DNA of 64,000 nt, taken from NCBI GenBank assembly GCA_945948915.1, contig CAMFCQ010000004.1, positions 1-64,000 of the forward strand, in the 5' to 3' direction. Both the position numbers and the translations under genes were made by a program. Source of the DNA: an uncultured Clostridia bacterium (GTDB lineage: Bacteria; Bacillota; Clostridia; Christensenellales; Aristaeellaceae). The notes under the pieces are model-generated. The model did no database searches and was not told the origin of the DNA. It was given only the letters and a program-made list of their open reading frames with translations. Below, one piece after another: positions 21,205-23,536 of this stretch (the first letter of the stretch is position 1; every line of letters begins with the position of its first letter).

Positions 21205-21222
21205 TTGAGTGGGAGGTACAGG

Positions 21223-22173
21223 GTGAAACCGGTTGTACTGGCGCTCGTTGGTCCCACGGGATCGGGCAAGACCAAGACGGCAATCCGTATCTGTCAGGCG
21301 CTTGACGCGGAAATCGTCTCCATGGATTCCATGCAGGTGTACCGGGGCATGGACATCGGCACTGCGAAGCCCACGAAGGAAGAACAATCCGCTGCGCTGC
21401 ATCATATGATCGACGTCGTGGAGCCGGATCAGATGTTCACGGTTTCGATGTACAGGGAGATGGCCTGCAAGGCGATTGACGATATCGTGGCGCGGGGAAA
21501 GGTGCCGCTGATGGTCGGCGGAACAGGTCTGTATCTTCAGGCGATCAGCTATGAGATGAGCTTGGGCGAAAACGGAGCGAACAATGCGCTGCGCGAATCG
21601 CTTCAGCGAATCGCCGGAGAAAAGGACGGACCGCAGCGGCTGCATGAGCGGCTTGCGCAGGTTGATCCGGCCAGCGCTGAAAAGCTGCATCCCAACGATA
21701 TACGCCGCGTGATCCGCGCGCTGGAGATCTACGAGACCTCGGGCAGGGCGAAGAGCGAGCAGGCGGATAAGCAGCACAAGGAAGGGCCGTATCATGTGCT
21801 GGTGTATGGGCTTTCGCTTCCGCGGGAGCAGATGTACGACAGAATCAACGCGCGCGTGGATGAGATGGTTAAAAGCGGTCTGATCGAAGAGGTCAAGGGG
21901 CTGCTTGAGCACGGCATTGAGCCAAAGCCGGAAGGCGGCGCGATGCAGGCGATCGGCTACAAGGAGATTGTCAGCGCGCTGCGCGGAGAAATGACGATGG
22001 AACGGGCGATTGACCTGATCAAGCAGGGATCGCGCCGATACGCCAAACGCCAATGGACGTGGTTTAGGCACGATCCGAGGACAAAGTGGTTTGATTGGAC
22101 GGCATACGAAAGTGAGTCCGCGCTGATTGACGATCTGCTTTGTCAGATCCGCGAGGATATTCGAAATCCATAG
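21223..22173 (+). CDS. miaA: tRNA dimethylallyltransferase
   Basis: VVLALVGPTGSGKTKTA, DSMQVYRGMDIGTAKPT, GGTGLYLQA; GTG start behind gggagg. Confidence 0.95.
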   Translation: MKPVVLALVGPTGSGKTKTAIRICQALDAEIVSMDSMQVYRGMDIGTAKPTKEEQSAALHHMIDVVEPDQMFTVSMYREMACKAIDDIVARGKVPLMVGGTGLYLQAISYEMSLGENGANNALRESLQRIAGEKDGPQRLHERLAQVDPASAEKLHPNDIRRVIRALEIYETSGRAKSEQADKQHKEGPYHVLVYGLSLPREQMYDRINARVDEMVKSGLIEEVKGLLEHGIEPKPEGGAMQAIGYKEIVSALRGEMTMERAIDLIKQGSRRYAKRQWTWFRHDPRTKWFDWTAYESESALIDDLLCQIREDIRNP

Positions 22174-22178
22174 AACAG

Positions 22179-22216
22179 ACCGGCGGTTTGCGCAATGTGG
22201 CAAACCGTCGGTTTTG
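22179..22216 (+). terminator. Rho-independent terminator of miaA
   Basis: ACCGGCGGTTTGC-GCAATGTG-GCAAACCGTCGGT followed by TTT. Confidence 0.7.
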
Positions 22217-22231
22217 CCTTGTCGGCACTGA

Positions 22232-22259
22232 ACATCTGTTTGTCAGGCGACATAGAATG
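22232..22259 (+). promoter_or_regulatory. Possible sigma-K-type promoter for the Cys-rich gene
   Basis: AC - 17 nt - CATAGAATG, compared with the B. subtilis sigma-K consensus AC-N16/17-CATANNNTA. Confidence 0.4.
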
Positions 22260-22300
22260 AACCGGACTCATGAATGATGAGGAAGGAAAGGAGGCTCAGC

Positions 22301-22864
22301 ATGCAGCATGGTTCGCTTCACGCAGGCTGCGGCTTTCGTCGGCAGCAGCCGGATGGGCACGGCTGCCGTAAGCCGTGCTGCGGATATATTCTCGAGGAGA
22401 TACACAGCCATCAGCAGGAGCGCTGCTGCTTTCGAGGTATGTTGGAAATCTGCGGGCTGCCGGCCCGTCTTGTTCTGCCGTTGACGCTGTGCAGTGTCGA
22501 TGTGGTGTGCATTTCCCCGCAATGCGCAGGGGACTGCCGTACATTTTGCTTAACGCTGCGCTGCGAAGTCGCTGACTGCCGTGGGTGCCGCGCGAATGGT
22601 GAAGCCTTTATGAGCGTCGCGCCTGGGCATGTGCCCGACTGCTGCGATGGAAACCTGCATCTGGGCGCGGAGATTGACGTGCAGGAGGCGCGATTCTGCG
22701 CGCCGTCAGGCTTTGCGGTGTGCGCAGATGTCTGTTTGACGATGGTGATCACCGGCGCCGGACGGATGCTCAGACAACAGCCCTGCGCGCCCAAATGCCT
22801 GTTCCCGCCGCTGTATCCTGCGCCTGCCTGTGCCGGAAGAGGAAAAAATACGGATTATTTCTGA
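22301..22864 (+). CDS. Cysteine-rich hypothetical protein (23 Cys in ~187 aa), candidate spore coat/exosporium component
   Basis: ATG preceded by AAAGGAGG at ideal spacing; CC doublets and repeated C-x(2-4)-C; no recognised domain. Confidence 0.6.
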   Translation: MQHGSLHAGCGFRRQQPDGHGCRKPCCGYILEEIHSHQQERCCFRGMLEICGLPARLVLPLTLCSVDVVCISPQCAGDCRTFCLTLRCEVADCRGCRANGEAFMSVAPGHVPDCCDGNLHLGAEIDVQEARFCAPSGFAVCADVCLTMVITGAGRMLRQQPCAPKCLFPPLYPAPACAGRGKNTDYF

Positions 22865-22892: not shown

Positions 22893-22921
22893 TTGAAGAA
22901 AGGCAGAAAATAGGGTAGAAT
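22893..22921 (+). promoter_or_regulatory. Sigma-A promoter for xpt
   Basis: TTGAAG - 17 nt - TAGAAT. Confidence 0.6.
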
Positions 22922-22963: not shown

Positions 22964-23536
22964 ATGCAAAAGTTGAAGGATGCGATCCTTGAAAAGGGAA
23001 AAGCAATCAATCAGGATGTTCTGCTTGTCGATTCCTTTTTGAATCATCAGGTTGACGTGAAGCTGATGCAGCAGGTCGGCGAAGCGTTTGCGGAATACTT
23101 TAAGGACCGCGGCATTTCTCGCGTCATCACCATCGAAAGCTCCGGTATTGCGCCTGCATCGTTCACGGCGCTCGCCATGGGGCTTCCGCTTGTGATTATG
23201 AAAAAGCAGACCTCCAGGATTATGACGGGCGATATCCTGCAGACCACGGTTCGTTCCTTCACCAAGGGCACCAGCTATGAGCTGACGATCAAGCGCGAAT
23301 TCCTCGTTCCCGGTGAGAAGGTGCTTCTGATCGATGACTTCCTGGCCAGCGGCGAGGCGGCGTTTGGCATGCTGCGTCTGGCGAAGGAAGCGAACATCGA
23401 GGTGGCAGGCATCGGCATCGTCATCGAAAAGGCGTTTCAGGCGGGACATCAGCGCCTGATCGAAGAGGGCATCGACGTGTATTCGCTTGCCCGCGTCAAG
23501 TCCATGTCTGAGAATCACATTGAATTCGTCGATTGA
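22964..23536 (+). CDS. xpt: Xanthine phosphoribosyltransferase
   Basis: MQKLKDAILEKGKAINQDVLLVDSFLNHQVD, VLLIDDFLASGEA. Confidence 0.95.
   Translation: MQKLKDAILEKGKAINQDVLLVDSFLNHQVDVKLMQQVGEAFAEYFKDRGISRVITIESSGIAPASFTALAMGLPLVIMKKQTSRIMTGDILQTTVRSFTKGTSYELTIKREFLVPGEKVLLIDDFLASGEAAFGMLRLAKEANIEVAGIGIVIEKAFQAGHQRLIEEGIDVYSLARVKSMSENHIEFVD

Follow-up and report, generated by a model that had tools for sequence, protein, structure and literature searches.

The analysis of a 64,000-nucleotide stretch of DNA (the window) from an uncultured gut Clostridia bacterium of the genus Candidatus Ventricola indicated that the single gene between miaA and xpt most probably encodes a sigma-K-dependent, disulfide-crosslinking structural protein of the spore coat or exosporium. 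The original prediction had proposed a component of these layers. This hypothesis was supported by the homologues of the gene, by its conserved promoter, by a link to the VYDSC and BMQ_0737 proteins and by the presence of a SigK gene in the same genome. The features of the region are listed in Table 1.

Table 1. Features of the cysteine-rich gene and its surroundings in the window
Feature	Position	Strand	Evidence
miaA (tRNA dimethylallyltransferase), upstream neighbour	21205..22173	+	Pfam IPPT, E 4e-91; neighbour kept in relatives
Inverted repeat ACCGGCGGTTTGC / GCAAACCGTCGGT, then TTTGCCTT, 3' of miaA	about 22179..22212	+	Read from sequence
Sigma-K-type -35 element AC	22232..22233	+	AC 16 or 17 bases before the CATA box on which 20 homologous upstream regions were aligned, in 19 of them
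Sigma-K-type -10 element CATAGAATG	22251..22259	+	17 bases after AC; box kept in homologues
Small inverted repeat CTCATGAATGATGAG in the 5' leader	22268..22282	+	Read from sequence
Shine-Dalgarno sequence AAAGGAGG	22287..22294	+	Sequence; ATG 6 bases further on
CDS, 187-aa cysteine-rich protein (23 Cys)	22301..22864	+	ORF reading, homologues, dN/dS
Six-stranded beta core, residues 29-153	22385..22759	+	AlphaFold2; region aligned to VYDSC family
C-terminal motif CLFPPLYPAP, residues 166-175	22796..22825	+	Alignments; family consensus C-P-x-LPLYPPP
Sigma-A-like promoter of xpt, TTGAAG-17-TAGAAT	22893..22921	+	Scan
xpt (xanthine phosphoribosyltransferase), downstream neighbour	22964..23536	+	Pfam Pribosyltran; synteny

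The cysteine-rich protein and its homologues

The length of the product, its 23 cysteines (12.3% of all residues) and the CC doublets among them were as originally predicted, and so was the ideal spacing of the ribosome binding site. Elements of the AAAGGAGG type were present for most of the homologues within the genus when the upstream regions were compared. The protein had been described as devoid of any recognisable domain, and this was borne out by searches of Pfam, NCBIfam and the PDB sequences with the window protein and 10 to 17 homologues. The only match was that of one family member to TIGR04117, which with an E value of 8.8 is at chance level. None of the spore families was matched directly by the window protein.

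Homologues in genus members were found with the window protein alone as a single query. With profile searches, 11 of the 29 genus genomes proved to carry an intact homologue, as did 59 of the 200 family genomes (14 of 50 genera). The relatives keep cysteine positions and reading frames without frameshift, as the original prediction required. When 18 family sequences were aligned, P170, Y172, P173 and P175 of the C-terminal motif were invariant. C166 was conserved to at least 90% and was the only cysteine to reach this value; few cysteines are invariant in the family, and the pairing partners are therefore not fixed.

A search of genome contigs with four consensus-like homologues gave five matches, including one in Candidatus Ventricola gallistercoris, whose genus is placed in Clostridia by NCBI; the same search with the window protein alone gave none. 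A plasmid search yielded matches neither to the window family nor to the VYDSC family described below. Weak single-query matches (E above about 1e-3) were dropped, as they contained stops or lay in unrelated frames. The exception was G143, which was confirmed as a homologue by a full-length alignment and a later profile score.

The promoter region

The sigma-K-like promoter of the original prediction, consisting of AC and CATAGAATG separated by 17 bases, was located upstream of the gene. It had been called close to the sigma-K consensus, which is correct for the AC spacing and for CATA, but CATAGAATG ends with G and the Bacillus sequence CATAnnnTA with A. A final G in the -10 box is the rule in this lineage. 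The combination AC-N17-CATANNATG occurred once in the 64 kb of the window, where 0.26 sites are expected by chance, so the single site is not significant alone.

Among about 26 homologues inspected, 20 were preceded by a box of the type CATA(G/A)(G/A)ATG, some of them in other genera; these 20 regions were chosen because a CATA..[AC]T[GA] box stood no more than 110 bases from the start, and CATA is thus fixed by choice. After alignment, 19 of the 20 regions carried AC at 16-17 nt 5' of the box, whereas 20,000 shuffles averaged 2.7 and never exceeded 11; the regions are related and not independent, yet they come from several genera with 20-40% protein identity. The sigma-E element ATA was found in none of them. 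In C. difficile, AC versus ATA at -35 distinguishes sigma-K from sigma-E (PMC3789822). Conservation of the box, a point that the original prediction had left to comparison with relatives, therefore extends to the AC at -35, and the regions follow the sigma-K pattern (AC, 16-17 bp, CATAnnnTA-like) with G usually replacing A as the last base. About five homologues, e.g. those of G158, G125, G064 and G024, have no clean CATA box; G158 and G125 have AATAGGATG instead.

The statement that the gene has this promoter instead of a sigma-A promoter held only in part. A scan of the window detected a sigma-A-like site, TGAACA-18-TAGAAT (9/12 matches), at 22229-22258, which overlaps the sigma-K site. If this site were the promoter, the gene would be a vegetative one with another function, for example in the envelope or in redox reactions, and its resemblance to a sigma-K gene would be due to chance. 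Such a reading is improbable, as the spacing from AC to CATA is kept in the aligned homologues while the sigma-A -35 element is not: matches to TTGACA averaged 2.75 in the 20 regions versus 2.36 by chance. A signal peptide at the N-terminus, looked for by eye, was not noticed, which also speaks against a vegetative gene of this kind. The relatives favour sigma-K, and transcription of the cysteine-rich gene from a conserved sigma-K promoter is supported by these comparisons of upstream regions.

The stricter pattern AC-N17-CATANRATG was found at 10 sites genome-wide, compared to 3 for the reversed control. Few of these sites lie 5' of obvious spore genes, one of them preceding the gene of an NlpC/PG-binding protein, and the strict pattern alone therefore defines no regulon. 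By reading of the sequence, many homologues have a hairpin at the position of the small inverted repeat CTCATGAATGATGAG in the leader. In genus g14 (L055, L056, L088, L091, L093 and L099) a CATAGGATG box is followed directly by a strong hairpin, e.g. GACCTGACGGTTGCTATGACCGTCAGGTC, which stands 5' of the Shine-Dalgarno sequence; the genus of the window has shorter hairpins.

SigK, SigG and SpoIIP are encoded in the source genome. SigK scored 284 bits against TIGR02846, just below the cut-off, and exceeded the cut-off of PRK05803, while the scores with SigE models were far lower. The SigK ORF (L135; G000:C16:13316-13954) ends with SRSYVSRRR and a stop codon about 13 residues before the end of the model, and no continuation was visible in the other frames. 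The short end may stem from the assembly, from a truncation or from an insertion there.

Relationship to the VYDSC and BMQ_0737 proteins

A profile of 18 members of the window family (A3) matched, outside the family, proteins that start with MSFYSYKN, contain VCIQVNKVYDSC and end with LPLFPP. Of 391 genomes sampled from the class, 83 contained this VYDSC family, which has no Pfam match itself. Comparison of the window family with the VYDSC profile by hhalign gave an E value of 9e-9, and larger sets gave a probability of 96 and an E value of 3e-9. With all cysteines masked the E value was 2e-10, while reversed or column-shuffled controls gave at least 0.14; the similarity is therefore not due to the cysteine content.

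In the AlphaFold2 prediction, made with six sequences as input, the beta core had a pLDDT above 90 in most blocks and lower values in two loops, and the cysteine- and proline-rich ends flanking it were disordered. A fold search of the PDB gave no significant match, and neither did the PDB sequence searches. Profile homology over the beta core and the C-terminal LPL(Y/F)P places the window family in the VYDSC superfamily. The two families align over the core and the C-terminal C-x-LPL(Y/F)P, and AC and CATAnnnTG boxes likewise precede the VYDSC genes. However, the N-terminal MSFYS and the VCIQVxKVYDSC motif were absent from all window-type members, which identifies these as a divergent branch. 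They are also shorter, mostly richer in cysteine and fast evolving, and among the genomes sampled they were found only in their own family-level clade. The VYDSC copy of the source genome (G000:C55:857-1552) adjoins sigG and spoIIP.

Five VYDSC proteins matched the NCBIfam model NF052457 ('BMQ_0737 family morphogenetic spore coat protein') from profile position 1 over most of its length with E values of 1.5e-4 to 3e-3; at 18-22 bits these matches are well below the curated cut-off of 71. Other VYDSC proteins, including the copy of the source genome, did not match NF052457, and the window family gave no match at E 10 and thus none at 71 bits. BMQ_0737 belongs to the outermost layers of the Bacillus megaterium spore (PMC4656864). 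It resembles the window family in the proposed location in outer spore layers and in the sub-threshold, near full-length link via VYDSC; it differs in that a direct match is lacking and every linking match lies under the curated cut-off. As judged from the profiles, a VYDSC/BMQ_0737-like superfamily exists in which the window family forms a divergent branch enriched in cysteine. In the class-wide search VYDSC-like stretches were also seen inside ORFs of about 1000 aa (e.g. in G884, G715 and G919), and larger spore proteins may thus contain the VYDSC domain as a module.

The cysteines could also serve a purpose other than crosslinking. A sigma-K-regulated, spore-associated protein with 23 cysteines, some histidines and a small beta domain might bind a cofactor or a metal such as zinc or copper, and act as a mother-cell or coat enzyme or as a metal store. 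This is improbable, since no fixed CxxC/HxxH constellation exists across the homologues and the cysteines drift while other motif positions stay. In addition, members of the VYDSC superfamily have as few as 6 cysteines, so the high cysteine content looks like an addition and not like a site.

Selection and gene order

The dN/dS ratio relative to the nearest relative was about 0.27 for the window gene, 0.12 for miaA and 0.04 for xpt. By this measure the gene is under purifying selection, yet quick to change. A spurious ORF in GC-rich DNA of TGC-rich composition, for which the missing database domain and the raised cysteine counts of two other frames (14 and 13) could be cited, has a negligible probability and is already refuted by the comparative data, namely this ratio, the intact ORF in relatives whose proteins are as little as about 20-40% identical, the conservation of motif and promoter in them, and the absence of in-frame stops (0 versus 2-5 in other frames).

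In relatives the gene order is mutL-miaA-X-xpt-maf-mreBC, where X is the cysteine-rich gene. Most of the genus members that were examined have it between miaA and xpt, in some cases with an additional gene inserted. By eye, a butyrate-kinase-like ORF was seen between miaA and the cysteine-rich gene in G071 (L036 6430-7554) and two GNAT-like ORFs in G032 (L035 8096-9076). In the genus members G201, G204, G206, G116 and G217 miaA is followed by xpt without the cysteine-rich gene, which is therefore dispensable or replaced there. In other genera the homologue as a rule does not adjoin sporulation genes. In G046 (L063 9676-11997) the homologue is followed by the gene of a 774-aa protein whose start, by eye only, appeared SpoIIE-like.

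The likely start of miaA is the GTG at 21223. The original prediction placed a miaA terminator upstream of the cysteine-rich gene; the inverted repeat 3' of miaA is visible and is a plausible terminator, but it was not called by the scan for terminators. In L002, L003, L045 and L048 the gap between miaA and the gene contains a repeat of this type, made up of AGACCGatGGTTT and its complement, which looks like a terminator motif common to the genus. The predicted sigma-A promoter of xpt was recovered by the scan.

Comparison with known spore proteins and proposed function

CotY, CotZ and ExsY are cysteine-rich, self-assembling outer-layer proteins of the Bacillus crust and exosporium, and they resemble the window protein in their cysteine richness. 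In scans with 11 or with 18 members of the window family, the CotZ-type models of Pfam and NCBIfam stayed unmatched at E 10. CdeC and CdeM of Clostridioides difficile, exosporium morphogenetic proteins with 9% and 8.7% cysteine, are likewise cysteine-rich and without a recognised domain (PMC6101409). The CdeC motifs KKNKRR, HHH (3xHis), NPC repeats, CCRQGKGK and CNECC (PMC6101409) do not occur in the 187 residues of the window protein. CsxA of Clostridium sporogenes/botulinum, a protein of 33 kDa with 25 cysteines, self-assembles into an exosporium lattice whose complete disassembly requires boiling in 2 M DTT (PMC7333573). The window protein is of a similar cysteine-rich class, it is likewise a probable sporulation product, and a disulfide lattice like that of CsxA is proposed for it. 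The likeness to CdeC, CdeM, CotY and CotZ raised in the original prediction applies to composition and probable mode of action and not to sequence kinship. By analogy, the window protein probably works like CsxA, CotY/ExsY and CdeC.

We infer that the protein is located at the spore surface, where it assembles and is crosslinked. Late in sporulation, mother-cell RNA polymerase with sigma-K would transcribe the single gene from AC-N17-CATAGAATG. The product is predicted to have a beta-sandwich-like core of the VYDSC/BMQ_0737-like superfamily, disordered cysteine- and proline-rich tails and the terminal C-P-x-LPLYPPP. Core-to-core packing would assemble the protein on the forespore surface, where the C-terminal motif may serve for docking. 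Disulfides between molecules, formed by cysteines of tails and core, would then create an insoluble layer that is sensitive to reductants, as described for CsxA, CotY/ExsY and CdeC. Points against this reading are the missing direct match to a spore family, the low NF052457 scores of the linking proteins, the neighbours and gaps of the locus in relatives, the overlapping sigma-A-like site, the homologues with no clean CATA box and the small number of invariant cysteines.

A wider and distinctly more speculative proposal is that the VYDSC/BMQ_0737-like beta domain is a general clostridial coat or exosporium lattice protein, possibly including CsxA, and that the window family represents a hyper-cysteine copy specific to its clade, which in uncultured gut Clostridia adds an outermost layer that is hardened by disulfides and evolves separately; we consider this possible but doubtful.

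In Clostridia, the proteins of coat and exosporium show little conservation and most of them lack annotation, and the promoter can guide to coat genes better than the fast-changing proteins. The VYDSC family is without a Pfam entry, yet it occurs in about a fifth of the sampled genomes. By promoter, profile and fold prediction, a protein without database match is now tied to this Clostridia-wide family, and the tie makes the spore shell of uncultured gut bacteria accessible to testing.
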